A DNA stretch of 34,223 nt from positions 1-34,223 of IMG/VR virus record IMGVR_UViG_3300044712_001018; one strand, written 5' to 3'. Numbering within the stretch: position 1 is the first letter of the stretch; each line of letters begins with the position of its first letter. Of the stretch, positions 7,503 through 33,387 are shown one piece after another. The notes under the pieces were generated by a model. That model worked only from the letters and a program-made list of their open reading frames with translations. It had not been told where the DNA came from and searched no databases. The position numbers and the translations under genes are program-made. The DNA is from a virus.

Positions 7503-7994
7503 TCACGGCGAGACCCTCCGCGTCATCTCGCCTTGTCTCGCGCCTGGCGCTACGCGCCAGGCGCGGCGCCAGGCCGGCATGCGCACGAAGCGCAGGCCCT
7601 CGAGGCCCGCGGCCGCGGCCTCGGCGCCGACACAGATCGCGAGCGCGACGAGCGGATCGGCCTCGCCCTCGATCGGCGCGAGGATTGAGACCAGGTCGCC
7701 GCGCATGGCGTGCCGCGCCGGGATCTCGACGAGTCCAGTCCACGCCGGCCACAGCTCGGCGCCGAAGAGATCGGGCCGCTCAGTCTGGCCAAACACCTCC
7801 TGCGCCAGGCGTAGCGCTCCGGCCGCGTCGCTGTATCGCCCGCGCAACGTAGCTCCATGGATGCGGCCCGATACCTGCGCGACCCAGTCGGCCGCCATCA
7901 GGCAGCAATCGTGATCGCCCCAGGCAAACGGCCGCGCGCGCCGCACCTCGATAAACTCCGCGAGCAGCACCCCGCGCTGTCGTGTCGTCATCAT
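7503..7994 (-). CDS. DUF6950-like tail assembly protein
   Basis: A 163-residue protein with a strong AGGAGGT ribosome site 7 bases upstream of the first of two ATGs (7994). The N-terminus has EFIEVRRARPFAWGDHDCCLMAADWVAQVSG, the FxWGxxDCxxLAADWV signature of DUF6950. That family is related in shape to NlpC/P60-like tail-assembly proteins and sits beside hub genes in many phages. Cys in DHDC could be a thiol catalytic residue, but a full Cys-His pair cannot be confirmed. It overlaps the upstream tail gene (ATGA). Confidence 0.7.
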   Translation of the reverse strand: MMTTRQRGVLLAEFIEVRRARPFAWGDHDCCLMAADWVAQVSGRIHGATLRGRYSDAAGALRLAQEVFGQTERPDLFGAELWPAWTGLVEIPARHAMRGDLVSILAPIEGEADPLVALAICVGAEAAAAGLEGLRFVRMPAWRRAWRVAPGARQGEMTRRVSP

Positions 7995-8359
7995 GCGGAT
8001 ACCTCCTCGTACGCCGCGATCTGGTAGGAGAACTCGACCGCCCCGCGCGACGTCCACCCCGTGGCCCCGGCGACCACGCGAAACTCGCGCACGCCAGGCG
8101 CAGGCGACTCGCCCGGGCACCACGGGTCCAGGTCGAACAGAAAGGTATCGGCCATGCCGTCGAGCGCCGCGACGAAGGCGCACAGGAGCGCCGCCTTCGT
8201 GCGGCCCACACGGTCGAACCGGATCACGATGCGATACTGGCGCCCGCCGCGGTCCTGCACCTGCGCGCCGAACGAGGTCGGCGAGACGGTCGCGACCTGC
8301 GCACGCGCCTTGACCACTTCGACCGAGCTCGGCCACACGTTGGGGAATGCTAGAGCCAT
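7991..8359 (-). CDS. Minor tail protein, paralogue of the core of the 10402 protein
   Basis: A 122-residue protein. Residues about 18-38 (RAQVATVSPTSFGAQVQDRG is the key part) closely match the centre of the 214-aa protein at 10402-9758 (RAQVATISPATYSAQVQDRG), and the similarity continues through a hydrophobic helix, a TF-x-(F/M) strand and a Pro/Gly loop. Both are therefore built on one domain, probably a tail-tip or distal-tail beta domain. Its start lies 1 bp from the GTATTCAG repeat that bounds the 468-bp insert. Confidence 0.65.
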   Translation of the reverse strand: MALAFPNVWPSSVEVVKARAQVATVSPTSFGAQVQDRGGRQYRIVIRFDRVGRTKAALLCAFVAALDGMADTFLFDLDPWCPGESPAPGVREFRVVAGATGWTSRGAVEFSYQIAAYEEVSA

Positions 8360-8367
8360 GTATTCAG

Positions 8368-8835
8368 AGGTCTCGCAGATTTGGGGTTGATGGAGTTGCC
8401 TGGCTCAGGCTCGCGCCGCTATCCCCGAAGTTGGTGTTTTGGGGTTGATGCGATTAGCGGCGGCGGCCTCCGCCATCAGTTTTCGCAGTTCACGGCGTCC
8501 CAAGGTCGCCGTGATGCTACTGAGGCAATTGCCGAAAGTCTGACTCTCCTTCTTGTTCTCGCGGGCAATCGGAGAGCGCTTCCAGTTTTTGCAGTCCGCC
8601 CGGTCAACCCACGGAGTCCACGCCTCCCAGCGGTTCAATTCTTCCGCCAAAGAGAGAGCCCACTCACGAGACATGGCTATGGTCACTGTTCGCTTGCCAA
8701 CCTTCCACCGCGGCGCCCCACCTGGCATAGGCCTGAGCTGCGTGCGTGATTTGGTTCGTTTCATATCAACCTTTGAGTGCGTGCTGCCGTTTCTGTCGTT
8801 TGTTCGGTTCGATCAACCCCAAATTTGGGTTACCC
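8368..8835. mobile_element. 468-bp insert with inverted termini and an 8-bp direct repeat
   Basis: GTATTCAG lies immediately outside both ends (8360-8367 and 8836-8843). Reading inward from each end, 24 bases match at 19 positions, with the last 12 identical (most of ATTTGGGGTTGAT, at 8379-8391 and inverted at 8812-8824). Removing the insert and one GTATTCAG leaves the upstream tail gene's TGA, four bases, then the downstream ATG, the tight packing seen elsewhere. The insert is visibly AT-richer than flanking genes and carries one 119-codon gene. This is the form of a small transposon or non-autonomous element; the protein is not a recognised transposase. GTATTCAG also occurs elsewhere in the window. 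Confidence 0.55.
8405..8764 (-). CDS. 119-aa protein carried by the 468-bp insert, unknown
   Basis: The protein begins MKRTKSRTQLRPMPGGAP, is rich in Lys, Arg and Trp, and has a central region with SREWALSLAEELNRWEAWTP and a helical C-terminal part (LGRRELRKLMAEAAAANRIN). The Lys/Asn content and lower GC set it apart from the neighbouring tail genes. No HNH, DDE, Rep or reverse-transcriptase motif was seen. It is entirely inside the element, and the element's direct TTTTGGGGTTGAT copy (8437-8449) overlaps its C-terminal codons. It could be a small DNA-binding protein of the element or a moron protein. Confidence 0.5.
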   Translation of the reverse strand: MKRTKSRTQLRPMPGGAPRWKVGKRTVTIAMSREWALSLAEELNRWEAWTPWVDRADCKNWKRSPIARENKKESQTFGNCLSSITATLGRRELRKLMAEAAAANRINPKTPTSGIAARA

Positions 8836-8839
8836 GTAT

Positions 8840-9754
8840 TCAGGCCTCCAATTCGTTGCCGGCCCAGTCGAAGTATCGGACCCGGGCCTCCTTGAAGATG
8901 AAATTCCCCTGGGGCAGCGAGTGCCGGAACATGAGCCAGCGCGGGAAGTTGACCGTATTCAGATCGGTGCGCCAGTTGCTGGCGACGTCGCCGTGTATCG
9001 TGCCCGTCTTGACCTGCGCGATCGTAGATCCCGACCCGTTGGTGAACGCCGCAAACATGCCATCGCCGGAGAGCGACTGCTGATTCTGCACGAGCGAATA
9101 ATACATCGTGCGGTCGACATTCGAGGCCCAGATCTCCCACGCTTTTGTCCACACGGCGGCCGAGGTCGCATGCGCGTGCAGCATGTGGTACGAGTCGGTC
9201 TGCGTGAGGTGCCCGGCACCCGCAAAACTGAATGATGCGTAGGTCAGAATACGGCCGCCGATGCCGTCGAGAAAGGAGTGCGGCTGATAGAGCTGCGGGC
9301 TGCTCGTCCACCAGCCCGCGGTGCCCGACAGGTACGGCCCGCCTGTGGTGACTTCGTTCCAGGTCGTCGGGACTACCTGCATGGCCCCGATTCGGTCGTA
9401 ATCTTTCGTGGCCGGATCGCTTATCCACGGCACAAGACTCGACGTGTTGAGCGGATACATCTGCATGATCCCGAAGAAATCCGTCGGCCACCAGGTGTGG
9501 CTGCCTGGATACGCGATCGGGATCGGAAACTTCGGGATAGCACTGGAGAACCGCAGGCCGAAAAAGTTGGTGTGATTCCAGCCCTTCAGATCCCAGTCTC
9601 CGGTGCCCACAGGCGAGACATGCGCCTTCATGCAGATCTGCATGCGCTTGGCCGCGGCCGGAGCCGCCGCGAGCTGGATGCGCCAGGCGCCCGCGCCGAA
9701 GTCGTCGCCCTCGATACGCCTCTCCGCATTTACTGGATCGTAGACGACACCCAT
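8840..9754 (-). CDS. Putative tail fibre / receptor-binding protein
   Basis: A 304-residue protein, rich in aromatic residues, Ser, Thr and Asn, with few charged residues, and beta-like throughout (AWRIQLAAAPAAAKRMQICM, then SYHMLHAHATSAAVWTKAWEI, and RWLMFRHSLPQGNFIFKEA at the end). There is no collagen or coiled-coil repeat. Base composition is less GC-rich than the surrounding tail genes, as is common for exchanged receptor-binding genes. It sits between two paralogous minor tail genes (10402 and 8359), suggesting a cassette. Receptor binding is inferred from composition and position; a baseplate structural role is possible. Confidence 0.5.
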   Translation of the reverse strand: MGVVYDPVNAERRIEGDDFGAGAWRIQLAAAPAAAKRMQICMKAHVSPVGTGDWDLKGWNHTNFFGLRFSSAIPKFPIPIAYPGSHTWWPTDFFGIMQMYPLNTSSLVPWISDPATKDYDRIGAMQVVPTTWNEVTTGGPYLSGTAGWWTSSPQLYQPHSFLDGIGGRILTYASFSFAGAGHLTQTDSYHMLHAHATSAAVWTKAWEIWASNVDRTMYYSLVQNQQSLSGDGMFAAFTNGSGSTIAQVKTGTIHGDVASNWRTDLNTVNFPRWLMFRHSLPQGNFIFKEARVRYFDWAGNELEA

Positions 9755-9757
9755 AAA

Positions 9758-10402
9758 TCAAAGGCTCGAGTCGTTCGCGCCATCCCAGCCGGAGGCGTCT
9801 GCGGTTACGTCGACCTGCTCGGCGGCCGCATAGTCGAGCGCCCCGCCCTGCCAGCCTGGCGTCGATGCCTTGACCACGATCGATTCGGCGACGACACCGC
9901 CGACCATCTCGACCGCCTCGAGCGAGGCCCCGAAGGCCACGCCGGCGCGGCTCTCCCAGCCCGGGTCGACCTGCAGGCAACCGAAGAGGACGATCCCCGC
10001 CGGCGCGCCTGGCGAGACGCGGTCGAGCGACATGGTAAAGGTGTGACCCGGCACGGCGACGAAGGCCAGGAACTCGACGAGCTCGGCCGCGGCCGCGCCC
10101 GTGAGCCCATCCCAGGCGAGCGAGATCTGCCAGCCGCGGCCGCCCCGATCCTGCACCTGCGCCGAGTAGGTCGCCGGCGAGATTGTAGCCACCTGCGCGC
10201 GCCGATGGTTGTATGTGGCCTCGTGCACATAGAGGCGATCCGGGAGCTCCCTCGAAGCGCCCGCGCTCAGGTCGCGATAATCCAGGGCGCCGCCCTGCCA
10301 GCCGTCGGCATCGGCCCCGATCACCCAGGAGACCGCCGGGGCATAGTCCAGCGCTCCTCCCTCCCAGCCGCTCGCCGCCGCATCGATCACGAGGACGCTC
10401 AT
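9758..10402 (-). CDS. Minor tail protein with flanking GW(E/Q)GGALDY repeats
   Basis: A 214-residue protein. The centre (about 66-160) is the tail domain shared with the 8359 protein (RAQVATISPATYSAQVQDRG). Two repeats of 22 residues flank it on each side: GWEGGALDY at 12-20 and GWQGGALDY at 34-42, then GWQGGALDY at 183-191 and GWDGANDS at 205. The repeats look like small surface-exposed turns that could decorate the tail or bind a fibre. The ATG overlaps the tape-measure stop by ATGA. Confidence 0.65.
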   Translation of the reverse strand: MSVLVIDAAASGWEGGALDYAPAVSWVIGADADGWQGGALDYRDLSAGASRELPDRLYVHEATYNHRRAQVATISPATYSAQVQDRGGRGWQISLAWDGLTGAAAAELVEFLAFVAVPGHTFTMSLDRVSPGAPAGIVLFGCLQVDPGWESRAGVAFGASLEAVEMVGGVVAESIVVKASTPGWQGGALDYAAAEQVDVTADASGWDGANDSSL

Positions 10403-18520: not shown

Positions 18521-19354
18521 TTAGCTGATACCCCATTTTGCCATCAGATACGCAAAGACCGCGGCGCGATCCGTGTCTGTTAGCGTCGCCGTATAAAGCA
18601 GCACCTCGGCGATCTTTGCCGTGATCGGCGTGACTCCGTTGTTATAGGCCCCAATTCCGCACGACGTGGCTGCCTTCGTGAATGTGCCCGGATTGCTTGT
18701 GAACGTCGCCGTGCTTGCAGGCTCGTTTCCGTTCAAGAATAGCTTGTGCCCGGCGTGCGTCCCGTCAGTGCGCTGGGCGACGCAGACAAAGGTATTGAGC
18801 CCCACTGCCGAATTGCTTTCTCGCCCGGTCAGGTAAACTCCCGACGATCCGCCATTGTGCAGCGCCGCAAACTTCCCGGCGTTAAAGTAAATCGACTGCC
18901 CGCCCGGCGACGGACTTTGATAACTACTCGCCCACCCGACCGCTATATCTGTTCCTGACGCTTCAGTTAACGCGAGCACGGCGAATGTTGTACTTGCCTG
19001 AGAGCCCGCGAAAGCTGGCGTATTTAGCCAGTCATCGACAAATGCCAAAGCGTCGCGGCCGTTTTGCTGAGCGACGCGACGCAGCGGGCGCAGGCTGCTT
19101 GTGGCCTGCGTCGCGTGTCGTGCGTTTCCGCTTTTATCCTCCCAGCGCGCAACAGCCCCATCGGCCGCGACCAACGATCCGCCGGAAGTCGCATCGTAAA
19201 GCGTGCTCGCATCGGATGCGTCGAGCCACAGAGCGAGACTGCCGATTGACGTTGGCACGAGGTCAGACGCGAACCGATACGGATTGATAACCAGGCGCGA
19301 CATGCGTGGCGTTTCGTGTTGGTTGAGGATCGGCGCGATTACTCGCTCGCCCAT
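18521..19354 (-). CDS. LamG/concanavalin-like lectin domain fibre protein
   Basis: A 277-residue protein with a single lectin-like beta-sandwich domain: SLALWLDASDASTLYD, WEDKSGNARHATQ, then IYFNAGKFAALHNGG, and a closing AEVLLYTATLTDTDRAAVFAYLMAKWG. The ALWLDASD...W-x-DKSGN-x-x-A-x-Q opening and ExxLY...L-x-x-(Y/L)L-x-x-K(W/Y) ending are typical of LamG-type domains in phage fibres and in Planctomycetes/Verrucomicrobiota proteins. ATG 19354 has GGAGG 5 bases upstream inside the end of the previous gene; ATG 19303 lacks one. Probably carbohydrate binding on the host surface. Confidence 0.7.
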   Translation of the reverse strand: MGERVIAPILNQHETPRMSRLVINPYRFASDLVPTSIGSLALWLDASDASTLYDATSGGSLVAADGAVARWEDKSGNARHATQATSSLRPLRRVAQQNGRDALAFVDDWLNTPAFAGSQASTTFAVLALTEASGTDIAVGWASSYQSPSPGGQSIYFNAGKFAALHNGGSSGVYLTGRESNSAVGLNTFVCVAQRTDGTHAGHKLFLNGNEPASTATFTSNPGTFTKAATSCGIGAYNNGVTPITAKIAEVLLYTATLTDTDRAAVFAYLMAKWGIS

Positions 19355-19878
19355 CCGGCCTCCAGATCCGGCTCTTGGCCGGCGGTGATCTGCGTCTTGA
19401 TCTCCTGCGCGCGCGCGTGATTCTGCCAGAGCTTGACGGCCAGCGCGGTGCAGCGATCGGCGATCGCCTGCTCTTTGGCCGTGAGCGTGAGCCCCTGCAC
19501 GCGGCGGAACAGCACGCCCACACCGAGCGCGAGGATCTTGAGCTGCTCGACCTCTTTCAAATGCCGATCCAGCTCGGCGCGCTCTTTGTTGTCGACATGC
19601 GTCGCGATCTCCAGCTCGGCGCGCTTTTGCGTGGCGTGCGTGATGAGCCACGGGTGCAGGTGCGGGAAGGTGGCATCGGCCACGGCGCCGCGTTGCTCGG
19701 TCGTGACGAGCGAGTAGTAGCGCGGATCATAGTCGGGAGCCGGATACGGCTCGCGCACGATGCACCACTCGAGGTCTGGATCGAGGCCGTCGACCGGCGC
19801 CAGGTCGGCGCGAGGATACGGCGCACGCTTGAGCAGCTCGCCGGTGGATTTGCGGATAAGGACAGAGGGAAGCGACAT
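19339..19878 (-). CDS. 179-aa conserved-type phage protein of the fibre block
   Basis: The N-terminal part (LIRKSTGELLKRAPYPRADL, then PYPAPDYDPRYYSL) reads like short phage proteins next to fibre genes that describe an aromatic/proline-rich beta domain. The C-terminal half (HVDNKERAELDRHLKEVEQL and onwards) is long helix, perhaps a coiled coil. This suits a fibre connector or chaperone, but no family was recognised. It overlaps the lectin-like gene by 16 nt. Confidence 0.5.
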   Translation of the reverse strand: MSLPSVLIRKSTGELLKRAPYPRADLAPVDGLDPDLEWCIVREPYPAPDYDPRYYSLVTTEQRGAVADATFPHLHPWLITHATQKRAELEIATHVDNKERAELDRHLKEVEQLKILALGVGVLFRRVQGLTLTAKEQAIADRCTALAVKLWQNHARAQEIKTQITAGQEPDLEAGWASE

Positions 19879-22176: not shown

Positions 22177-22578
22177 TCAGGAGAGAAGGCGCAGCGTGCG
22201 CGAGACAGCCGTGTTATTGCCGGCCGTCGCCGAGCAGGCCGTGTTTTCGCGCACGTAGCGCCGCACGGTACTCGGGAGTTTGTACCGGCGCGAGGAGGCC
22301 GCGGCGCCGGCGCCACCGGCGCCCGTGCGCACGAGCGCCGCCAGGCCGGCCACGGCCGCGAAGGTCGTGCCGTCGGCGCTGTCCTGGATCGTGGTCGTCG
22401 TGGTCTGGCCGTCGGCCAGGTTCGGCGTCGCCGGGATCGAGATCTCGAGCTCGAGCGCGTCGGGCAGGCTCGCGCCGTTCAGGACCTCGAGGTCGATCGC
22501 CGCGGAGTCGCTGTTGGTGTTCTGAGCCGGCAGCGCCGTGACCTTCGTCAGCAGCGCGTCTTTGCGATTGGATTGCAT
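22177..22578 (-). CDS. 133-aa head protein, decoration-like position
   Basis: The protein starts MQSNRKDALLTKVTALPAQN and contains ELEISIPATPNLADGQTTTT and an internal ADGTTFAAVAGL; it ends in a beta-rich SSRRYKLPSTVRRYVRENTA. It follows the capsid gene directly and has the size and pattern of small head decoration or stabilising proteins. It is the last gene before the strong terminator, matching high co-expression with the capsid gene. Confidence 0.5.
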   Translation of the reverse strand: MQSNRKDALLTKVTALPAQNTNSDSAAIDLEVLNGASLPDALELEISIPATPNLADGQTTTTTIQDSADGTTFAAVAGLAALVRTGAGGAGAAASSRRYKLPSTVRRYVRENTACSATAGNNTAVSRTLRLLS

Positions 22579-22625
22579 GAGTGTGTATCCGCTGGATTGT
22601 TACGGTTGGCGGGTGGCGGCGCGTC

Positions 22626-23600
22626 TTACTCGATCGCGTCGGTATTCAGGATCGAGTCGGTCTCGACGATCGGCACGCCCTCGTAGGAGGTCGGCCGCGG
22701 CGCGACGACCTCCTGGTCGGGCCGGTTGCGGCCCTGGCCCTGCAGGGTCACGGTGCGCGCCTTCTGCAGCTGGTTGATCGAGCGCCGCGAGGCGAAGATC
22801 GCGTCGGGGCGATAGTTGGCCGGGAAGGTCGAGAACAGGTCGGCCAGGAGGCCGTCCGTCAGACCCTTACCCGTTTCGGCCGTCAGGTTGATGATGCGGC
22901 GCGCGCAATTCTCGTTGCCGAGCTGCAGGCCGATCCAGCCGCCGAGGCTCGCGACGTAAGCCTCGAGCAGCTTGGTCGCATCGTTCGGATCGGTGATCAT
23001 CTGCTCGCGCCAGGCGCTCAGCTGCAGGCTCACCCCGTTGCCCGGGACGAGGATCGCGTCGCGCAGGCCGAACTTGACCGCGTAGACCGAGCTCGCGGTG
23101 TTGGCCGTCGTGCCCGTCGCGTTGACGGTGAGCGGATCGCCGACGCTGGTCGTCTGATCCTTCGGGAGGAAGGCCTTCAGGCCCGGGAAACCGTCGGCCG
23201 CGCCGTCGGCCTTGGTGTTGGCCAGGCCGTAGAAGATCTGCCCGCCGAGGCCGCGCATCGCGCCCTGCGCAGCGCCGGCCGCCTCGATCGCCTGGTAAGC
23301 GGCCGCGCCATCCTCGTGCGCCTGCGCGACGCGCTTATCGACTGCGATCAGCGCGTCGAGAATATAGCACTCAAACTTCGCCTGCTTGAAGGTCGACTTG
23401 ACCGGAACCGTACCCGCATTGGCCTTACGGAAGGAGACGCGCGGAACACCCGTGCGCACGCCCGATGTATAGGTCGTGCCGCGTATCGGATCGCGCATCG
23501 GGAAAACCTCCATCTCCGGCGCGGCCTGCAGGCCCTCCTCGATCATGCCGACAAGGGAGTCGTTTCCCGAGAGCTTGACCATATCGAGGAGCGAGGCCAT
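22626..23600 (-). CDS. Major capsid protein (HK97-fold, GP7-type)
   Basis: A 324-residue protein from ATG 23600, opening MASLLDMVKLSGNDSLVGMI. Many GP7-type major capsid proteins begin with the same MA-x-LLD-x-x-KL-x-GND. It continues VFPMRDPIRGTTYTSGVRTG, then FECYILDALIAVDKRVAQAH and KFGLRDAILVPGNGVSLQL with the closing NYRPDAIFASRRSINQLQ. The in-frame upstream segment (23601-23774) encodes a membrane hairpin and is treated separately. Neither ATG has a strong ribosome site, so the true start needs protein evidence. Confidence 0.8.
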   Translation of the reverse strand: MASLLDMVKLSGNDSLVGMIEEGLQAAPEMEVFPMRDPIRGTTYTSGVRTGVPRVSFRKANAGTVPVKSTFKQAKFECYILDALIAVDKRVAQAHEDGAAAYQAIEAAGAAQGAMRGLGGQIFYGLANTKADGAADGFPGLKAFLPKDQTTSVGDPLTVNATGTTANTASSVYAVKFGLRDAILVPGNGVSLQLSAWREQMITDPNDATKLLEAYVASLGGWIGLQLGNENCARRIINLTAETGKGLTDGLLADLFSTFPANYRPDAIFASRRSINQLQKARTVTLQGQGRNRPDQEVVAPRPTSYEGVPIVETDSILNTDAIE

Positions 23601-23774
23601 CGCGCCCAGGCGCAGCGACCCCAGCATCCGGATGCGCAGCGACGAGTCGACGATGAGATACGCGCAGAGCGCGACGGGTGCGCCATACTGGGCGCCGATC
23701 AGGCCGAAGACGGCGACGATCGCGGCGAGGGCCGCCACGACGAAGAGGATACCACGGAGGGAATATTTACGCAT
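23601..23774 (-). other. In-frame 58-codon membrane-hairpin segment upstream of the capsid ATG
   Basis: The open frame continues without a stop to an ATG at 23774, giving MRKYSLRGILFVVAALAAIV and a second hydrophobic run (GAPVALCAYLIV), that is two TM-like helices. M-(R)-x-(F/Y)-SLR-x-(L/I)-L is a common beginning of small membrane proteins in Planctomycetota/Verrucomicrobiota. Either it is translated as an N-terminal extension of some capsid subunits, or it is the remnant of a separate gene fused by loss of its stop. A noncoding origin is unlikely given the clean hydrophobic pattern. Confidence 0.45.
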
Positions 23775-23824
23775 GTGAGGAAAAGCGCGAGTGTGAGTGA
23801 TGGACGGGTGTCGCCGGCGCGTAT

Positions 23825-25162
23825 TCAGTTGCGCCCGACGTTGGCGGGATTATGCGTGTCCGCCTTGAAGGCGGCCGCGATACGGTCGATGCCCTTGAGC
23901 TCGCGCGGTTTCGCGTCCGTGCCGGAGCCCAGGCCGGCCGCGGCGCCTAGCGCCACCGGCGCGGGATGGCCCGAGGCCTTGAGCGTCGCGATCTCGCGAT
24001 CCTTGGCCGCGAGATCGGCCTGCGCCTTGGCGTGCGCGTCCTGCAGGCGCTTGAGCTCGGCCGCGTCCTGCGCGGAGAGGTGCGCCTCGATCTGCTCGAT
24101 CGTCGCATCCGGCTTGCCGGCGACGAACTCGAAGGCCTTGGCGAGCCGGCCCTTATCCGCGCCAAACTTCGCCGAGATGGCCGAGAGCTCGAGACCCTTC
24201 GGCGCCTCGGCCGCGGGAGCGGCGACAGCGGCCGCAGGCTTGGCCGCGGCGAGCTTGGCGTCGATTTGGTCGATCGTGAGTTTCGAGTCCTCGGCGAGCA
24301 GCTTGCAGGCGCTCGCGAACTTCATGGGATCGCTCCCGTATTTGGCATGGATGGCCGTCAGTGTGTTCATCGTGACTTGGTCGTGATTGGTTTCTTCCGC
24401 GCGAGCGGGCTCTACATCAGAGGCCGCACTGTCCGGCCCGTTGCTTTTGCAGAACACGGCGACGGCCTCAGCCAGGCGGCCGAGCGCCTCGAGCTGGCGC
24501 CGCTGCGCCCCGCCACCGAAGAGCGCGCCCAGGCCCGGGAGCTTAGAGAGCGTCGCGAACACGCCGCCGGGATTGGCCGCCGGCTCGTCAACGAAGGCCG
24601 CGTAAGCCAGGTCCGTGACGCGCAGCGCCGGCAGGCCGTTATACTTCAGCTCGCGATCGATCGGAGGCTCGCTGTACTCGTCGTCGTTCTCGTCGACGTA
24701 GGCGAGATATCCATACGGCTCGATCGACACGCCGAAGAGCTCCGGCGTCTTGTCCGCCATCTCCAGGAGCGTGTCGACGTGGGCGGCGTTGGTCTTCTTG
24801 AATGTGTCGTAAAACTGGAAAACCCCGGCGACGAGCTGCTCGCCCTTGGCCGCCACGGCCGAGAAGTATCCCGGGATCTCGAGCATGCGGTCGGCGCCGT
24901 GACTCGTGATGTAATCAAGCATCGACGGGTGCCGGAAGGCCGCCTTCAGCCGGCCCTTTTTCGCCGCGACGACCTCGGCCGCCGTCTCGATCGTGCGCTC
25001 GTCGATGAAGATCCCGTGCCCCTTGGCCTCGCCGACACTCAGGAGCGCGACGTCGCGCAGCATGCCCGAGGCGCGGTCGACGGCAAACTTCGGGGCGATC
25101 TTCAGCGAATAGGAGCGGCCGCCGGTCGCCGGCGCCTGCAGGAGTTTCTTTGCGGTATTCAT
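23825..25162 (-). CDS. Fused prohead protease-scaffold protein with duplicated C-terminal module
   Basis: A 445-residue protein. The first ~220 residues form a head maturation protease-like domain: GHGIFIDERTIETAAEVVAA, FRHPSMLDYITSHGADRMLE, then VDTLLEMADKTPELFGVSIE; His in FRHP and Ser in GVSIE are candidate catalytic residues. The C-terminal half is Ala-rich and charged as in a scaffold. It contains two related units, LTAIHAKYGSDPMKFASACK...DQIDAKLAA and LSAISAKFGADKGRLAKAFE...EQIEAHLSA, so a tandem duplication. It overlaps the portal gene by ATGA. Internal ATG 24370 could make scaffold alone, as lambda Nu3. Confidence 0.75.
   Translation of the reverse strand: MNTAKKLLQAPATGGRSYSLKIAPKFAVDRASGMLRDVALLSVGEAKGHGIFIDERTIETAAEVVAAKKGRLKAAFRHPSMLDYITSHGADRMLEIPGYFSAVAAKGEQLVAGVFQFYDTFKKTNAAHVDTLLEMADKTPELFGVSIEPYGYLAYVDENDDEYSEPPIDRELKYNGLPALRVTDLAYAAFVDEPAANPGGVFATLSKLPGLGALFGGGAQRRQLEALGRLAEAVAVFCKSNGPDSAASDVEPARAEETNHDQVTMNTLTAIHAKYGSDPMKFASACKLLAEDSKLTIDQIDAKLAAAKPAAAVAAPAAEAPKGLELSAISAKFGADKGRLAKAFEFVAGKPDATIEQIEAHLSAQDAAELKRLQDAHAKAQADLAAKDREIATLKASGHPAPVALGAAAGLGSGTDAKPRELKGIDRIAAAFKADTHNPANVGRN
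24422..24438. repeat. GGCCGCRCTGTCCGG block, copy C (inside the protease-scaffold gene)
   Basis: GGCCGCACTGTCCGGCC matches the first block of copies A and B. Here it lies in the linker between protease and scaffold, encoding GPDSAAS on the minus strand, with CTCTAC close by as in copy A. The frame is kept. Confidence 0.65.
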
Positions 25163-26880
25163 TCTTTGGGTTGCTTCGATTGCTTGCGGCTGTCGCCTTC
25201 TTCGTCCTCGAGCTCGGGATCGGTGGCCGGGTCCTGGCGGCCGGCCGCGGCCGGATCGTCCGGAGGATCGTCCTCGCCCCGGCCCGTGCCGCCGGGCAGG
25301 TATGGATACTTCGTCGTGCCCGGCAGCTCGCCGCGAAGCAGGAAGCCGACCGGCACCTTCTCCCGGGAGTGATCGCCCTCGGCCTCGAGTTCGCCCGCCG
25401 CGACCTTGGCCGCGATCCAGAGCTGGCGCCGGGCCGCGAGGACCTCCTCGGGAAATTCGCCGTTGTCCATCCACACGTCGCCGAGCGAGAGCTCGCCGGA
25501 ATCCAGCCCGATCTGGTTGGCCTTTCGGGCCCGCTCGTCGTCGAGCACGGCCGCCCGTTTCCAGCCCCAGACGATCAGGTCGTCGTCGCCGTCGGGGTTG
25601 GCGATCGGCGCACCGGTCTCGATATCGACGATCTCGCCCAGCCGGTGCGCCAGGTCGATGCGCCAGTCGTGCAGCGGCCCGTGAAAGGCCTCCTCGAGGA
25701 ATGCGCAGACATACGCGCGCCGCGCCTTCCACTGCACACCCAGGCCCTTGAAGCCCGAGTAATTGACGTCGCCCAAGCCCGAAAACCACAGCTCCACCGG
25801 CAGGCCGACCGGCGCACTGATCGCATGGAGCATGAGCATCACGAGCTCCTTGTAATCAGTCGCCTTGTACTCGTTGACGAGTTGGTGCAGCTTCTCCCCC
25901 GGCTCGAGGAAAACGAAGGTCCCGGGCGGGAGCTCGATCTTCAGCGGTCGCTTGTCCGTGGATACACGATCGGCCGGGCTGTCGGCCGTCTCGGCCGCAG
26001 TCGCCTCGGCCTCGGGAGCATCCGAGTCGAGCGGGCCCGCGCCCGTCCCGATATCATTCAGAAAGTCGTTTGCGTTGGCCTTCTCGACCGCGCCGGTGAT
26101 CGAGGTCACGTCCTTGATCTGCTTCGTCTTGGCGCGCGTGATCTCGTGCAGGTCGCGCGCAGTCTTCATCCCGGCCAGGAGCCAGGGGAGGCCGCGGCCC
26201 ATCAGCACGCGGTCCGCGTCGAACACGTGCACGACGTTGGCCGCGTCGACCAGCTCCTCGTCGCGGCCGGTGAAGATCACCGTCCCATAGTCCGACAGCT
26301 TGCCGAAGCGATACGCCACCGGCACGCCCTGGCCGTCATACACGATCCCGTTGACCTCGCGCGTGCCGAAGCGGGTCGCGCCTCCAGGAGATCCGCAGAA
26401 CTCCGAGGCGACGAGCTGGATGCGGCCGCCGCGCAGCTTGATCACGAAAAGCTCGCCGGCGAGCAAAAGCTCGCCAAGGAGGATCCGTTCGGCCCAGCGC
26501 AGCGACTTCTTGTGATGTGTGAGCGCTTTCGACCAGCGAAACCAGAATCGCTCCTTGGCGAGATTGTATCGCTTCGAGCGCGTGCGCGAGCGAAGCGAGG
26601 TGAAGCCGACCGCCTCCGGGTACTTGGCGTGCAGGCCGGCGAGATACGGGTTGTTTCGCACCTCGCGCCGGAAGCGCGACAGCGCGATATTGCGCACCGA
26701 TCCCGTGAAAAGATAGTCCTCGAACACGCCGTTGCGCAGCGGACCCCAGTCGGTCTCGCGCATCGTGCTGGCAGCCTCGTAGTAGGAGGCGGATCCGCCC
26801 GAGGACAGGACGAGCGTGCGCGGCGATGTATCCGCCAACGGAGCACGCCGGAAGGTGATGGCCGGTGCGTCGGAGCTCAT
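25159..26880 (-). CDS. Portal protein (lambda gpB family)
   Basis: A 573-residue protein. Typical features are YYEAASTMRETDWGPLRNG near residue 33, VRNNPYLAGLHAKYPEAVGF, FWFRWSKALTHHKKSLRWAE, then a DANNVVHVFDADR-like segment, SAPVGLPVELWFSGLGDVNY and the C-terminal EDDPPDDPAAAGRQDPATDP acidic tail. Order TerL, gpW-like, portal, protease-scaffold and capsid is the lambda-like head order. It forms the dodecameric DNA gate of the capsid. It overlaps both neighbours by ATGA. Confidence 0.9.
   Translation of the reverse strand: MSSDAPAITFRRAPLADTSPRTLVLSSGGSASYYEAASTMRETDWGPLRNGVFEDYLFTGSVRNIALSRFRREVRNNPYLAGLHAKYPEAVGFTSLRSRTRSKRYNLAKERFWFRWSKALTHHKKSLRWAERILLGELLLAGELFVIKLRGGRIQLVASEFCGSPGGATRFGTREVNGIVYDGQGVPVAYRFGKLSDYGTVIFTGRDEELVDAANVVHVFDADRVLMGRGLPWLLAGMKTARDLHEITRAKTKQIKDVTSITGAVEKANANDFLNDIGTGAGPLDSDAPEAEATAAETADSPADRVSTDKRPLKIELPPGTFVFLEPGEKLHQLVNEYKATDYKELVMLMLHAISAPVGLPVELWFSGLGDVNYSGFKGLGVQWKARRAYVCAFLEEAFHGPLHDWRIDLAHRLGEIVDIETGAPIANPDGDDDLIVWGWKRAAVLDDERARKANQIGLDSGELSLGDVWMDNGEFPEEVLAARRQLWIAAKVAAGELEAEGDHSREKVPVGFLLRGELPGTTKYPYLPGGTGRGEDDPPDDPAAAGRQDPATDPELEDEEGDSRKQSKQPKE
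26451..26464. repeat. Dispersed palindrome GCTCGCCGGCGAGC, copy 4 (inside portal)
   Basis: The core lies within the portal coding sequence (encoding LLAGEL) and, read on the minus strand, is bounded by TTTT on both sides, with a third GGCGAGC half just before. Unlike copies 1-3 it does not follow a stop codon. Confidence 0.6.
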
Positions 26881-27146
26881 GTCTCGATCCGGGTCTGGGT
26901 CACGGCGAGGCCGGTCGCGGCGCGCCCGCCGGCGAGCCTGGCCTCGAGGCCGCGGATCTCCGTCGTCAGCTTGCGCTCGCGCTCCTGCGCACGATCGACG
27001 GCGATCTGGGTCACGGCCACGCCGCCGATATTGAACTGTTGGCCGTTGGTCTCCGCGCGCTCGATCACCTGGCGCGTGCGCGCCAGCTCAGCCCGCAAAC
27101 GCGTGAGCCGCTCGCCGATCGTCTCGCCTCCTTGTGGTGTGGGCAT
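26877..27146 (-). CDS. Head-tail joining protein (lambda gpW-like)
   Basis: An 89-residue protein from ATG 27146, with two helices and a central beta hairpin: GERLTRLRAELARTRQVIER, then GQQFNIGGVAVTQIAVD and a final helix RERKLTTEIRGLEARLAG. The central FNIGG-x-x-VTxx matches the gpW hairpin (S-x-x-I-G-G-R-S-V-T). In lambda gpW fixes packaged DNA and lets tails join. It sits between TerL and portal, as in lambda. Repeat copy B occupies the 129-bp gap upstream. Confidence 0.8.
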   Translation of the reverse strand: MPTPQGGETIGERLTRLRAELARTRQVIERAETNGQQFNIGGVAVTQIAVDRAQERERKLTTEIRGLEARLAGGRAATGLAVTQTRIET

Positions 27147-27155
27147 CCACCGAAA

Positions 27156-27264
27156 GGCCGCGCTGTCCGGCCGGCCAGACACTGGCGCAGCAAGTGTCGA
27201 GCAAGGCGAAGCCGCTACTCAGCGTTTGCGCAGCAAAGCGCGGGGCGCGCACCCGCGCGGGCCT
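27156..27264. repeat. Composite dispersed repeat, copy B
   Basis: Same order as A: GGCCGCGCTGTCCGGCC (27156-27172), GCCAGACACTGGCGCAG then CAAGTGTCGAGCAAGGCG, CTAC, an extra 30-base GC-rich part, and GCACCCGCGCGGGCCT. It ends 12 bp before the stop of TerL and its first block begins 10 bp upstream of the gpW-like ATG. Confidence 0.7.
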
Positions 27265-27275
27265 CGCGGCCGGGC

Positions 27276-29174
27276 CTAATTCTCCACCTTTGCCATCGGC
27301 CGCGCCTGATCGCCGGCCGCGCGTGCAGCATCGCGCCGGCGCTGGTCGGCGTTGCGCCTGGCCCGCAGCGCCCAGAAGAAGGCGAGGATATACACCTCGC
27401 AGTCGCCGGCGTGGTTTTGCTTCGTGCGTGGCCGGAACTCATCGCCCGGCAGCCCGCGCTGTTTGCGCGCCCGCGGCACCCGCGACTCGTCGAGAATCTC
27501 CTTTTTGTATTCCGCATACTCGGCGATCTCCTGGTCGTTGGCCTGGTCGAGCAGGCCGTGGCGCCCGAGCCGGAACAGATACCAGTTGCGCAGCTTGCCC
27601 GCATAGCGCGCCTCGAGCTCGCACTTAAAATCGTACGTGGAGATCACGAGCCGCACGCAATAGGCCTTTTGCCCGCCGCCCTTGCCTCCGAGCAGCACGT
27701 TCTCGCGGTCGACCTTCACCCGCTCCGCGGAGTATTCGACGCCGTCGGCCAGGACCCAGCCGCGCGCCTGGCGCGCATACACCTGCTCGCGCACCTCCTG
27801 GCGCCTGTCCTCAAAGTTCATATCGACGATCGCGCGCCACACTCCGCCGCAGCGCTGGCGATAGTCGCGCTCGATCGCGTCGAGATCCGCCCAGGTCGGC
27901 GCCCAGCCGAAGTCGAGCAGGTAGAGCGAGCCGGACCAGGTGAAGCCGCGCAACACCCAGCGAAAGCGCGTGCGCTGCACGTCCACGCCGAGGATCAGCC
28001 CGTCGAGCCGCACGCCCTCAGGCACATCGCCGCGCATATAGTCGAGCTCGAGGTCGGCGAGCTTGCGGACGTTGACCTCCTCGATCTTCGCCTCCCACAC
28101 CTCGCCCATGTCTGAATTCCAGAAGTCTTGTCGATCGAGGAGAAATCCCGTCGCGCGCGCCGACAGAAACTTCGCCGCCAGGCGCCCGACCTTCCGCGAG
28201 GCGTTGTGCCCATACAGGCCGTTGAGCAGGTAGGAGCGATACCCCGGGAGCGCGGCCTTCGTCGGCCGCCACTCCCCGCGCGGATCCTCCACAGCGGCGA
28301 GCCGGGTCGCATCATCCCAGGGCGCGCCCGGGCACTCGGGATTCTCGCACTCGTAGCGCGTCTCGAGCTTCACCCGCTCGAGATCCCAGGAGCCGTCGGG
28401 TCGCTTCGCATTGACGGGCCACTTCACCCCGCCGCGCGAGTGCTCGTCGCCCCAGCGCAGGGCCTGCATGCGGCCGCAGTGCGGACAAGGCACGAAGTAC
28501 CGGCGCATGTCTCCGCGCACGACCTCCTGCCAGAACAGATTGCCCGCGGTGCGCGGGGTCGAGCTGAAGAGATGCTTGCGCGTGTCGCCATACTTCTCCG
28601 TGCGATGCCGCACGAGCTCGAGGATCGCCGCCTCCTCCTCGGTCGCCGTGCGCCACTTCGCGGCCTCGTTTCCGAGCACAGTCTCGACCGTGTCGCCGGC
28701 GACCTGGGTCTCGCTGTTCGCGCCGTAGACATTGAAGGCCGCGCCGGCGAAGAGTATCTCGGAATTGGTTACGTGGTGACGATCCGCCGGCAGCCGCGCC
28801 CGCAGCACCGGGTTGTGCATGATCATCGGCCGTATCTGCTTCTTCACGACGGAGCGCCCCTTGTTCTCCGTCGAGTCGAGCCACATCACGGGCCCGATGC
28901 GCCCCGCGATCTTATAGGCCAGCGCCATGCGCAGCAGGAAAGTTTTCCCCTCCTGGGTCGGCCCGGAGAAGAGGATATCCCAGACCGTGCGCAGCTCGAA
29001 ACAGTCCAGGATCTCGCGCATCCAGCCGCGCAGCTTCACCCGGCCGTGCTCCGATTCGTTGGCGCCGGCCGGCAGCCGCAGATACTTCTCGACCCACTCC
29101 GACGGCCGCAGCCACTCCGGCACGCGAAAGAAGCGCCGTATCCTGTCGCGAAATACTACCTCGCCGGAGATCAC
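27276..29174 (-). CDS. terL: Terminase large subunit (lambda GpA family)
   Basis: A 632-residue protein. The ATPase domain has Walker A FSGPTQEGKTFLL (about 70-78) and a Walker-B-like GPVMWLDSTEN just after. The middle has zinc-like CPHCGRMQALRW and CENPECPGAPW, as in GpA proteins. The nuclease half carries GLILGVDVQRTRFRW with metal-binding Asp, and SLYLLDFGW. The family packages DNA from cos ends in lambda-like phages. It overlaps TerS by ATGA and is followed by gpW-like and portal. Confidence 0.92.
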   Translation of the reverse strand: MISGEVVFRDRIRRFFRVPEWLRPSEWVEKYLRLPAGANESEHGRVKLRGWMREILDCFELRTVWDILFSGPTQEGKTFLLRMALAYKIAGRIGPVMWLDSTENKGRSVVKKQIRPMIMHNPVLRARLPADRHHVTNSEILFAGAAFNVYGANSETQVAGDTVETVLGNEAAKWRTATEEEAAILELVRHRTEKYGDTRKHLFSSTPRTAGNLFWQEVVRGDMRRYFVPCPHCGRMQALRWGDEHSRGGVKWPVNAKRPDGSWDLERVKLETRYECENPECPGAPWDDATRLAAVEDPRGEWRPTKAALPGYRSYLLNGLYGHNASRKVGRLAAKFLSARATGFLLDRQDFWNSDMGEVWEAKIEEVNVRKLADLELDYMRGDVPEGVRLDGLILGVDVQRTRFRWVLRGFTWSGSLYLLDFGWAPTWADLDAIERDYRQRCGGVWRAIVDMNFEDRRQEVREQVYARQARGWVLADGVEYSAERVKVDRENVLLGGKGGGQKAYCVRLVISTYDFKCELEARYAGKLRNWYLFRLGRHGLLDQANDQEIAEYAEYKKEILDESRVPRARKQRGLPGDEFRPRTKQNHAGDCEVYILAFFWALRARRNADQRRRDAARAAGDQARPMAKVEN

Positions 29175-29923
29175 GCCGCGCTCGGCTCCGGCAGCACGGC
29201 CGCCGAGCTCATCGCCGCGCCGGCCGCGTTCATCTGCTTATAGATCTCGACGACCGCGGCCTGTATTGGCTGCAGGTGTCGCGCGGGGTCCTCCGGGCAC
29301 AGCTCGGCCGCCAGGCGCGCCGGCAGGTCGTCGAGCAGTTGCTGCAGCACGGCGAGCTCGCGCCCGACGATATCGGCCGCACGGTCGACCGTGATCACGT
29401 TCTCCGACTTCTCGAGGAGCTTCTGATATCCCTCACGGATCTCCCGGCAGCGCTTCGCCGCGAGCTGCCAGTTGTCGAGCGCGGCCGCGATCTTCGCGGA
29501 ATTCTTCGTCGAGCACGCCTCGCGATACAGCCCCGCCGCGATCTTCACGACCGCCTCGGCCTCCTGGATCATCCACTGGTCGAAGTTGTCGATCGGCACG
29601 AGAAACTGACTCGCGTCAAACTTCTCGACCTCAGCCACCGGAGCCCGGGCAGGAGCCGCTCCCCCGCCCCCGGGTCTCTCTCCTTTGCCAGCATCCGGGG
29701 TCTCCGAAACCGGTGCGGCCGCGACAGCGGCCGCCGACTTTTTCCGCGGCGGCGCATGGATCAGTCGCCACGCGTCGGCCTCGGCGAATCGATCCGGATC
29801 CGCCTCGCCCCGATCCTCCCACTCCGGCGGCCTATCGTCACCCGCGCGTAAGCGGAGCTGGCGGACGTAACCTGTCGACGTCCCCCAATGCTTCGCTAGC
29901 GCTCCGGTCGGGATTTTCGGCAT
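29171..29923 (-). CDS. terS: Terminase small subunit, DNA-packaging HTH protein
   Basis: A 250-residue protein. Residues 3-45 (IPTGALAKHWGTSTGYVRQL, then RAGDDRPPEWEDRGEADPDR) form a helix-turn-helix DNA-binding region, as in Nu1-type TerS. A charged Ala/Pro linker follows, then a helical region (IQEAEAVVKIAAGLYREACS, AADIVGRELAVLQQLLDDLP). It would recognise the packaging (cos) site and recruit TerL. ATG 29923 is preceded at once by repeat copy D. The cos site is expected nearby but was not identified. Confidence 0.75.
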   Translation of the reverse strand: MPKIPTGALAKHWGTSTGYVRQLRLRAGDDRPPEWEDRGEADPDRFAEADAWRLIHAPPRKKSAAAVAAAPVSETPDAGKGERPGGGGAAPARAPVAEVEKFDASQFLVPIDNFDQWMIQEAEAVVKIAAGLYREACSTKNSAKIAAALDNWQLAAKRCREIREGYQKLLEKSENVITVDRAADIVGRELAVLQQLLDDLPARLAAELCPEDPARHLQPIQAAVVEIYKQMNAAGAAMSSAAVLPEPSAA

Positions 29924-29931
29924 CTACTATC

Positions 29932-29948
29932 GGCCGCGCTGTCCGGTC
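29932..29948. repeat. GGCCGCRCTGTCCGG block, copy D (upstream of TerS)
   Basis: GGCCGCGCTGTCCGGTC at 29932-29948, ending 9 bases upstream of the TerS start when read on the minus strand. Copy B lies at almost the same distance from its gene's ATG, suggesting a function tied to gene starts. Confidence 0.6.
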
Positions 29949-29964
29949 CGCGTTAGTAACGCCG

Positions 29965-30507
29965 TCAGTAACTTTGCGGATCAGTTCTCACGATCGATCC
30001 CGTGCGCCGTGCGGAACCTGGACTGGGCTTTTTGGCGGGAAGGACCCGCGCGCCAGAGTTGCGTAAGTCGTTGGACGACCCGGTTGTAAAAGTCGCGCAA
30101 GTCGTTGAAGGATTCGCGTGCGCCTGCGGCGCCTCGGAGTGCTCGCCGGCGAGCACCTTGCGCCAGTGTGCAGCGTGATCACCGATCGAGGACGGGGGCA
30201 CGCCGAGCAGGGCGGCCAGGTCGCGCACGGTTTGGCCCTCAAACATCTCGGGCGCCGTGACCCAGGCGAGCGCGAGAAAGCGCAGATATCCCGCGCGGAA
30301 GCGTCGCAGGCCGCCGTTTGTCTCCGCGCTCGGGATACACAGTCGCATGATCTCGTGTATCGTGCGCGCGAGCTCGAGCGCCTCGGCGCGCCTGGTCGAC
30401 GTCTCGTGCGTGTCGAGCGGATCGGTCGAGAGCTCGGGAGCATACTCGAGCGGGACCTTGTTCTCCCACCAGCCGCCAGGCCGCCGATCCATGCCCTTGC
30501 TGCTCAT
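29965..30507 (-). CDS. HTH protein upstream of the terminase genes
   Basis: A 180-residue protein from ATG 30507 (MSSKGMDRRPGGWWENKVPL at the start). It has a helical region EALELARTIHEIMRLCIPS and then an HTH-like TVRDLAALLGVPPSSIGDHA near residues 92-112. The C-terminal 60 residues are low-complexity Ser/Thr/Pro, with palindrome copy 5 in their first codons. Its place before TerS suggests a late-gene regulator or an accessory packaging protein. It overlaps the next upstream gene by ATGA. Confidence 0.55.
   Translation of the reverse strand: MSSKGMDRRPGGWWENKVPLEYAPELSTDPLDTHETSTRRAEALELARTIHEIMRLCIPSAETNGGLRRFRAGYLRFLALAWVTAPEMFEGQTVRDLAALLGVPPSSIGDHAAHWRKVLAGEHSEAPQAHANPSTTCATFTTGSSNDLRNSGARVLPAKKPSPGSARRTGSIVRTDPQSY
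30141..30154. repeat. Dispersed palindrome GCTCGCCGGCGAGC, copy 5 (inside HTH gene)
   Basis: Symmetry extends to 18 bp (30139-30156). It encodes VLAGEHS on the minus strand, the same amino-acid reading as seen at copies 1 and 3. The protein downstream of this point is low-complexity, so the palindrome may mark a former gene end. Confidence 0.65.
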
Positions 30508-31250
30508 GCGCGATCCTCGAGCTTGTCGATCATGCGGCCGATGCGGATCCGCCGCTCCCCCGTCGTCTCGTCGACGCTGACGTGCGCGTGATGAATCGAG
30601 CCGTCGGCGCCGACCCAGCGCGTAAACTTCGTGCGGAAGTCGTGCCCGGGCTCGAGCCTGGCCGCCTTCCACTGGATCCCCTCGAGCCCGTCGGCCTGGT
30701 CGGGTTGTGTTTCGTTTCTTTTCTCGGGCCCGGCCTCAGGCCTCGGCGCCGGCGCCGGTATAGGCTCGGACACTTCGGATACGTTTTTGGCGCTAGCGGT
30801 TTCTGTATCATGCGCCTGCGCCTGCGCGCACATATTAAACTTTTGGAGAAAATCTGTCCGAAGCGTCCGGGATTGGCCTTCGGTTCGCGTCGCCGCCGGC
30901 ACGCACTGCGCAAAACCTATCCGAGGTGTCCGCGTTTCCGGACCCTTGCGCGCCGGCGCTCGGCCAGGCTCGCCCCCGCGCGAGCGCTCCTGGTCGCGAG
31001 CGCGCGGGCCCTCCCACTTGCTTTTCGCCGCACTGTCGAGCTTGTGTTTAAGCTCCTTTGCCGACCAAGCCGGCGAGCATCGGCCGTTGTATTCGTCGAG
31101 CACCTTCGCCGCATCCTCGCGCGAGAGCTCGAAGAAGTGCAGCAACACCCGCGCGACGTCGAAGGTCGCGCCGTGTCCGTTGGATCCGGAGACGGCCGCC
31201 GGCATCTTGGCCACGTAGGCGCGAGCCCGATCAATAAGGCTTGTCGCCAT
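30504..31250 (-). CDS. Primase-associated domain protein
   Basis: A 248-residue protein from ATG 31250. Residues about 5-80 (SLIDRARAYVAKMPAAVSGS, then ATFDVARVLLHFFELSREDA and CSPAWSAKELKHKLDSA) match the alpha-helical PriCT-like domain usually found inside replicative primases between prim-pol and helicase. Here it is a separate protein directly after the primase-helicase gene, overlapping it by 20 nt. The rest is Pro/Arg-rich with a final beta-like segment (TKFTRWVGADGSIHHAHVSV). It may assist the primase in trans. Confidence 0.6.
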   Translation of the reverse strand: MATSLIDRARAYVAKMPAAVSGSNGHGATFDVARVLLHFFELSREDAAKVLDEYNGRCSPAWSAKELKHKLDSAAKSKWEGPRARDQERSRGGEPGRAPARKGPETRTPRIGFAQCVPAATRTEGQSRTLRTDFLQKFNMCAQAQAHDTETASAKNVSEVSEPIPAPAPRPEAGPEKRNETQPDQADGLEGIQWKAARLEPGHDFRTKFTRWVGADGSIHHAHVSVDETTGERRIRIGRMIDKLEDRA

Positions 31251-33387
31251 CGCCGGCGGCCTCCTGGGCAACCGGCTCGGCCGCCTTCGCGACGCGGAGG
31301 CCCTTGTATCCGCGCTGCGCCTTCTCCTTCTCGCCCTCGCCCGATGGCCGCTTGATATCGTTGCGCGGGGTGATGCGCCAGATCTCCGAGACGGCGTCGA
31401 CAAGCATGGTCTGAGCACGCTTGAAGGTCTCGGCGCGCCACCCTTTGGCGTCGCAGTAGAGCGCATACGCCTCGCCGAGCTCGTGCAGCGTGACGTTGTC
31501 GGGCTCGCTGCGCTCGACGCCGTGCTGGACGAAATGCCGGACGCTGTCGCTCTCGGCCAGGAGCGAGTCGATCTCCTCCTGTTGCTCGGCCGTCAGGACA
31601 AAGTCGCCGTGCGTGCGCTTCTCCTCGAGCGTCTTCACGGCGCCCGCAATCATCCAGTTGAGTATCCCGGATGCCTCGGACGAAAATAACGTGGACAGGA
31701 AGTCGGGGTCGCGCTTCGCCGGTTTAGGGAGAGCGTAGCGGAAGGGAAGCATCCGCCGACGGAAGGCGTCGGCGTCGCCCTCGAGCTTGATCAGCAGCCG
31801 CGAGTTGCAGGTGATCGCGATATGAAAGTCGCCCGTGACCTGGATCGCCGCGCCGCCCTGCTTACGTTCGGCCGAGAGAGGATCGCCGCCGACAAGCGCC
31901 TTGAGCACGTGCGCCCCGTCTTGCTGCAGAAAGTCGCCGTTGACGTCTGGGGCGATGAGCAGCGTCTTGCCGACGTAGAAGAAGAGCTCGAAGCGCTCCT
32001 CGAGGTGTTTGGTCCGCAGCTGGGTGCAGTTGTCAGCGCCGACAATCAGGCGCAGGAGCCGGACGAGCGTCGACTTGCCCGCGCCGGCCGTGCCGTAGAG
32101 AAGCGCGAAGCGCTGCATGATGTTCGGCCCGAGGAGCAACGAACCCGACCAGCGCTGTAGTAGGTCGGCATTGGATACGGACAGCGCGGATAGTATAAGC
32201 TCCTTGGTGAACCGCGGGCAGGTCGCCTCCGGGTCGAACTTCACCGGGACCTGGTTGCGCGAGTACCACCGCGGCGAGAAGGGATGCGTCTTCAGGGCGC
32301 CGTCGCGGATATCGAGCATGCAGTTGGCGAGGTGGATGAGTCCCGCTTCGCGCCGGAATGCGTCGCGCCTCAGGGTCGCCCCGCGGAGCATATGGACGAG
32401 GTTTTTCAGGAAGGTATTTGTCCGGATCGTCAGGAGATCATTGATCCCCGACTCGTCGGACATGCGTTTGAAGTCGGCCGCGAGATCCCACTGTATTTGA
32501 TCGTCGGAGACCTTGACCCAGAGGCCGCGCTCCTCCTCGTACTGGTAGAAGGCCGCCTCGTCTGGCTCGAAAAGCGTCTCGTGCTCCATCGCATACTTGG
32601 CGACGAAGTACGGCGGATTGAGCGTGATCGCGCCCTTGGCGCTCACAAACCAGCCCGGCCCGTGCTTCTCGACGAGCTTCTCGGTCGGCGTCTTCTCCCA
32701 GGGGAGCGCGAGGCCTTCAGGCCAGCGGATCTCGGAGAATGCGCAGCGCGCCGGCGAGGCCGACGCGCTGACCCGCCGGTATGGCATGCTCTCGGGGTGC
32801 GTGCCCCAGATCACGGTCTGGCCGCCGTCGGCGCGCCATTCACCCCAGGGCCGCTGTTTATCGGGCGAGCCGTCGCGTTTGGCGAAGTAGATCTTGCCGA
32901 CCGCTGTCGGGTAGCCCTCCGAGTCGATCCACAGCCAGAAATTGCCGCCGCGGCGCGCGCGGGTGCGCAGCGTGCCGGCCAAGTGCGGGTTTAGCGCGAT
33001 GAAAGGCTCGACGGCCTCGTCGGCGTCGACGTCGATCGAGCACAGCACGTAGCGCTTGCCCTCGATCGGGACGGCGGCCGCGCTCGCGGCGCCCAGGAGC
33101 ACGCCCAGATTGCCGCCCTCCTGGCGCACGCGCTCGAGCTCCTCGCCGTACGTGCTGGCGCGCCAGACCTGGCGCTCCTTCTGGCCTTCGACCTCCTTCG
33201 ACCAGGTGAGCGGGGTCGACGGATCCTGGGTTTTCTCCCAGGTGATGGTCTGCCACCCGTCGAAGCGCGGTCCCTTCTTCCCTTTCTCGATGGGAAGGAG
33301 GACCGGGCGGCCGCCGAGTGCCTTTATAATAGAGGACACCGGGTCGGAGGCCGGCCCGGTGTCCGTGGTGATGGGGTGATCTGTCAC
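31231..33387 (-). CDS. Primase-helicase: bifunctional prim-pol plus D5/P4-type SF3 helicase
   Basis: A 718-residue protein. The N-terminal prim-pol domain has CSIDVDADEA (117-123) and GEWRADGGQTVIWGTHPES. A D5-N-like part leads to the helicase: Walker A LLYGTAGAGKSTLV (Gly432-Thr440), Walker-B-like KTLLIAPDVNGDFL, sensor HIAITCNSRLLI, and an AFRRRMLPF arginine finger. It would prime and unwind phage DNA. The start is GTG (33387) without clear ribosome site; no ATG fits better. It is the first of the four genes leading into packaging genes. Confidence 0.88.
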   Translation of the reverse strand: MTDHPITTDTGPASDPVSSIIKALGGRPVLLPIEKGKKGPRFDGWQTITWEKTQDPSTPLTWSKEVEGQKERQVWRASTYGEELERVRQEGGNLGVLLGAASAAAVPIEGKRYVLCSIDVDADEAVEPFIALNPHLAGTLRTRARRGGNFWLWIDSEGYPTAVGKIYFAKRDGSPDKQRPWGEWRADGGQTVIWGTHPESMPYRRVSASASPARCAFSEIRWPEGLALPWEKTPTEKLVEKHGPGWFVSAKGAITLNPPYFVAKYAMEHETLFEPDEAAFYQYEEERGLWVKVSDDQIQWDLAADFKRMSDESGINDLLTIRTNTFLKNLVHMLRGATLRRDAFRREAGLIHLANCMLDIRDGALKTHPFSPRWYSRNQVPVKFDPEATCPRFTKELILSALSVSNADLLQRWSGSLLLGPNIMQRFALLYGTAGAGKSTLVRLLRLIVGADNCTQLRTKHLEERFELFFYVGKTLLIAPDVNGDFLQQDGAHVLKALVGGDPLSAERKQGGAAIQVTGDFHIAITCNSRLLIKLEGDADAFRRRMLPFRYALPKPAKRDPDFLSTLFSSEASGILNWMIAGAVKTLEEKRTHGDFVLTAEQQEEIDSLLAESDSVRHFVQHGVERSEPDNVTLHELGEAYALYCDAKGWRAETFKRAQTMLVDAVSEIWRITPRNDIKRPSGEGEKEKAQRGYKGLRVAKAAEPVAQEAAGDGDKPY

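Follow-up and report, generated by a model that had tools for sequence, protein, structure and literature searches.

A probable MITE-like insertion between two tail genes of an uncultured phage

The question raised by this locus is how 468 bp of DNA (8368–8835) came to separate two genes of the tail module in an uncultured phage, and whether this DNA is a mobile element. The window analysed was the whole virus record, 34,223 bases in length. Based on its ends, flanking repeat, composition and reconstructed insertion site, the 468 bp are probably a MITE-like, non-autonomous miniature transposon in the phage late operon. The insert is termed MITE-like, rather than a proven MITE, because neither further copies nor a parental IS were found in the collections searched. 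Feature coordinates are collected in Table 1.

Table 1. Features at and around the insert, with positions in the window
Feature	Position	Strand	Remarks
122-aa downstream gene, distal-tail-protein-like	7991–8359	−	phrog_1302, E 2.5e-6
Putative target-site duplication, left copy, GTATTCAG	8360–8367		just upstream of the 122-aa tail gene start codon
Left terminal inverted repeat, AGGTCTCGCAGATTTGGGGTTGAT	8368–8391	+	
119-aa orphan ORF P0001	8405–8764	−	AAAGG 5 nt ahead of ATG; codon usage foreign; putatively coding
Internal third copy of inner terminal motif, TTTGGGGTTGATG	8438–8450	+	possible extra transposase-binding site
Right terminal inverted repeat, GGGTAACCCAAATTTGGGGTTGAT	8812–8835	−	
Direct repeat GTATTCAG, right copy, 8 bp	8836–8843		holds the stop of the 304-aa upstream gene (TGA, minus strand, 8840–8842)
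304-aa upstream tail-module gene	8840–9754	−	without family match
GTATTCAG copies	2341, 8360, 8836, 8955, 22642, 23821	+	

Structure of the insert

The insert is flanked by an 8-bp direct repeat, as a sequence-only reading of this DNA had described. The repeat is exactly 8 bp, because the bases preceding and following it are not the same on the two sides. Alignment of the two ends, AGGTCTCGCAGATTTGGGGTTGAT and, reversed, GGGTAACCCAAATTTGGGGTTGAT, gave the same result as that reading: 19 of 24 positions are identical, including all of the inner 12. Agreement drops to 7 of 12 positions in the outer halves, where the tip base is A at the left end and G at the right. The end pattern can be written as GGGTNACCCNAATTTGGGGTTGAT, the two ends taking the form GGGT...TTTGGGGTTGAT, and the one on the right forms a strong palindrome (CCCAAATTTGGG). 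TTTGGGGTTGAT is common to both ends and to one internal copy, 58 bp from the left one and in the same orientation; the 12-mer of the ends has no further occurrence in the window outside its three copies in the insert. Repeated subterminal sites are usual for transposase binding, and the repeated TTTGGGGTTGAT sites may also have a regulatory role. The internal third copy, a 13-mer, was absent from the earlier reading.

The GC content of the insert is 57.7% in a genome of 67% GC. Its two flanking genes have values of 69.9% and 61.9%, so that the earlier description of the insert as AT-richer than its neighbours is well borne out for one gene and only slightly for the other. Folding of the minus-strand RNA was better than that of shuffles (z −2.8), with pairing of the ends contributing in part; a search for structured RNAs or self-splicing introns in Rfam gave no match at E ≤ 1 over 8200–9000.

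Bacterial MITEs are AT-rich, measure about 50–600 bp, lack a transposase and have a duplication as long as that of the parent IS (PMC6382973); transposase-less MITEs of such size have been well documented in bacteria (PMC6382973, PMC10969869). Like MITEAba12 (113 bp) and the 439- and 502-bp elements of Acinetobacter (PMC6382973), the insert is short, relatively AT-rich and transposase-less, with terminal inverted repeats and a direct repeat of IS-like length, here exact at the one locus available. Unlike the Acinetobacter elements, it is single copy, has no known parental IS, contains a 119-aa ORF that is putatively coding and lies in a phage. A limited literature search found no published description of a MITE in a phage.

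The insertion site in the late operon

The minus strand carries the late genes, which encode a terminase, portal, major head protein, tape measure, distal-tail-like proteins, an NlpC/P60-like protein and a host-specificity protein. The capsid protein is nearest to that of Akkermansia phage Chantilly (31%), and the terminase to those of a Cerasicoccus (Verrucomicrobiota) contig (43%) and an Omnitrophota contig (46%); these nearest relatives point to a phage of PVC bacteria. Another virus record, IMGVR_UViG_3300034257_000034, has a terminase 68% identical and also shares the portal and capsid genes. Over window positions 22177–33387, compared with this record (L004–L006), packaging, capsid and primase genes are mostly 39–68% identical. 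Such a pattern between two phages, with the same module joined to unrelated tails, resembles that of module exchange.

Because the tail module of this closest relative is unrelated, the record is uninformative on the insertion site. No relative found shares this tail region or shows an empty site, so the empty site was inferred by excision. Removal of the insert and one repeat gives the junction GAATTGGAGGCCTGAATACATG, in the context ...GAATTGGAGGCCTGAATACATGGCT..., so that the reconstructed empty site reads GGAGG-CC-TGA-ATAC-ATG. The GGAGG falls within the last codons of the upstream gene and, in the reconstructed site, 9 nt from the downstream ATG; in the interrupted state, only GCGAGACCTCTGAATAC precedes the downstream ATG. 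The reconstructed junction would therefore give the downstream gene a good Shine–Dalgarno sequence, which is counted as supporting evidence only, since Shine–Dalgarno use is patchy in this phage. The other junctions of the tail cluster overlap or are 0–4 nt apart, in agreement with the earlier proposal that excision restores a TGA followed 4 bp later by an ATG in tight packing. Roseobacter phage CRP-811 and Serratia phage Serbin have homologous tail modules, in the order tape measure, distal tail (phrog_1302), phrog_2048, NlpC-like (phrog_2134) and host-specificity protein; these are also tight, and no additional small gene occurs in the stretch from the distal-tail to the NlpC-like gene. Insertion is thus supported by three independent signs, namely the restored Shine–Dalgarno sequence, the tight tail-gene junctions, and the foreign GC3 and codon usage described below.

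The upstream gene had been called a fibre gene, a label that the absence of any family match leaves without support. It sits between two distal-tail-like genes, the proteins of which (7991–8359 and 9758–10402) have the motif RAQVATxSPxxxxAQVQDRGGR in common. From this, the tail module seems to hold two distal-tail paralogues with a lower-GC orphan, the 304-aa gene, between them.

The 119-aa ORF and rival explanations

The frame of P0001 is the best of six by codon score. Its GC3 is 0.667, compared with 0.80–0.91 in nearly all phage genes, and its codon score is −0.09, compared with 0.26–0.61 in 15 of 16 phage genes; GC3 and codon usage of the insert are foreign to the phage. An ORF of this length is found in 5% (ATG) to 12% (any start) of random 468-mers with the same dinucleotide content. 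Comparison of the protein with phage and host genomes had been suggested as a check, and no relatives were detected in Pfam, PHROGs, NCBIfam, IMG/VR, GTDB contigs, 388 verrucomicrobial genomes or phages. Verrucomicrobial matches at E ~1e-3 were regarded as noise, the best one being antisense to another gene, and a PDB match (E 4e-6, a 'CAP REPEAT' chain) was discounted as low-complexity helix, no stretch of which passes alone. Structure prediction from the single sequence gave a mean pLDDT of 49, too poor for use. The ORF annotated by the sequence-only reading is present, but it is weak as a gene, and that label is not warranted on present evidence. As that reading had also stated for the encoded protein, no transposase-like match was seen, either in P0001 or in the other window ORFs scanned. 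One structural-protein gene elsewhere in the window (18521–19651, phrog_10356) stands apart from all others scored, with a GC3 of 0.586 and a codon score below zero, and may have a different origin.

Coincidental repeats around an orphan intergenic region, in a phage rich in GTATTCAG, would be a very unlikely explanation of the structure. All exact 8-mer pairs 100–5000 bp apart in the window (n = 14,107) were scanned and their inward terminal match was scored. The insert was the best of these at 19/24, followed by GC-rich pairs at 17/24. The maximum in 60 Markov-simulated windows was 18/24, and in a control scan covering 228 kb of viral and bacterial sequence from elsewhere, none of 34,933 pairs reached 17/24 or more; by a binomial estimate, about 0.001–0.004 such structures are expected per window. 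The joint structure is thus beyond both simulated windows and control pairs, and chance would not readily give a biologically sensible reconstructed junction. To be set against this, inverted repeats exact over 12 bp are not unusual at kilobase spacing (an estimated ten or so per window of this size), and GTATTCAG is found 6 times, always on the plus strand, where 0.24–0.3 copies are expected. The earlier caution that the octamer is frequent was well placed, and its over-representation weakens the direct-repeat evidence without removing it. The copies at 8836 and 23821 coincide with minus-strand ORF stop codons. Two copies fall within coding regions, one in the 304-aa gene and one towards the end of the capsid gene; the over-representation could not be linked to a function. 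A role for CTGAATAC as a general signal before start codons was rejected, as a listing of all GRATAC sites gave no support.

The insert could also be a 'moron', a small foreign gene gained by illegitimate recombination, with repeats that are coincidental or act as operators of an autoregulatory 119-aa protein. Such a gene would account for the foreign GC and codon usage, the AAAGG ahead of the ATG, the position between two late genes and one 12-mer in three copies within the insert, and the flanking octamer is itself frequent. What makes this explanation unlikely is that the inverted repeats coincide exactly with the ends of the insert and have an exact 8-bp repeat flanking them, that no promoter-like site was found for the insert and its single terminator-like site is on the other strand, at about the number that shuffles give, and that the protein has no relatives in anything searched. 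The sequence-only reading had favoured a new small mobile element, or a non-autonomous one carrying cargo. A transposase-less insertion is the part of that proposal best supported; a new, cargo-bearing element overreaches, because the ORF is barely above chance length and without relatives, the searches gave no further copy, and the empty site is a reconstruction. Fainter still than coincidence is the prospect of an undescribed small transposon family of PVC-bacteria phages, with three TTTGGGGTTGAT binding sites, CTGAATAC-like intergenic targets in phage hosts, and its own 119-aa protein as a DNA-binding helper or anti-host cargo.

Mechanism and source of the transposase

For a MITE-like element, a DDE transposase would have been supplied in trans, most likely by an IS resident in the host, which is probably verrucomicrobial. 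The enzyme would recognise the two GGGT...TTTGGGGTTGAT ends, which would then be joined to an 8-bp staggered cut in CTGAATAC, a target that covers both the 304-aa gene's stop codon and the 4 nt preceding the start codon of the 122-aa gene. Repair of the gaps would duplicate the 8 bp, sparing both reading frames while parting the upstream GGAGG from the downstream gene. Movement, a host enzyme as the mover and the family of that enzyme are all three inferred; with no transposase match among the window ORFs scanned, the enzyme most likely came from elsewhere than the phage. If this is correct, a transposase-dependent miniature element rides in a phage late operon with no gene broken, and MITEs, known from bacterial chromosomes and plasmids, would extend to a phage genome, in a host group the phages of which are poorly known. 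This would enlarge a known class of mobile DNA only modestly, leaving general understanding unchanged.

Searches for other copies with the same termini, as had been proposed, were negative: none was seen in IMG/VR viral contigs with three end patterns, in plasmids or phages searched, or, for the whole insert, in 303 genomes of the order, and the end pattern with mismatches had no clear match in 388 verrucomicrobial genomes. The one exact viral match to an end pattern (L007) was within a coding region of an unrelated contig. Ten verrucomicrobial matches with 2–3 mismatches were in no clear excess over a control pattern, and the best of these sits in what reads as coding DNA. The lack of a second copy in these collections is not conclusive, since one may reside in the genome of the host.

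Candidate enzyme families were compared by reading the ends of autonomous elements from Verrucomicrobiota (ISL3, IS1595, IS256 and ISKra4) and building tip-fixed profiles. The ends of the insert did not fit the IS256 or ISKra4 profiles (p 0.22–0.68), and IS6 was set aside as almost absent from the Verrucomicrobiota sampled. They gave p values of 0.009–0.018 with the ISL3 profile and 0.011–0.026 with that of IS1595, both marginal. Each profile was built from few elements (4 to 19 ends), and the two tested ends are not mutually independent; for these reasons ISL3 is given only as a first guess at the family.

A narrower form of the transposon reading, in which the insert derives specifically from a verrucomicrobial ISL3-family element, is possible but rather doubtful. 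ISL3 is common in Verrucomicrobiota (64 of 195 genomes), and its elements there have 8-bp duplications, as found here, and GG-tipped ends, e.g. GGTTCATCGTCGATTACCGGGGAA. The ISL3 profile p of about 0.01–0.02 for the two ends also favours this origin. However, their scores of 1.5 and 1.3 are far under the mean of 23.5 for true members, IS1595 scores equally, and no Pfam match to a DDE_Tnp_ISL3 transposase or remnant was found in P0001 or two plus-strand frames. The verrucomicrobial ISL3 elements and the insert are alike in the 8-bp duplication and in GG-tipped ends of about 24 bp, with an A/T tract followed by a G-rich motif; they differ in that the insert has no transposase, and the match in end sequence is marginal. 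One ISL3 element (L048) has an end, GGGTCAACCCCAAAATCGGTGGGA, that resembles the right end of the insert. The two ends of L048 differ strongly from one another, and it is this one that is near-palindromic.
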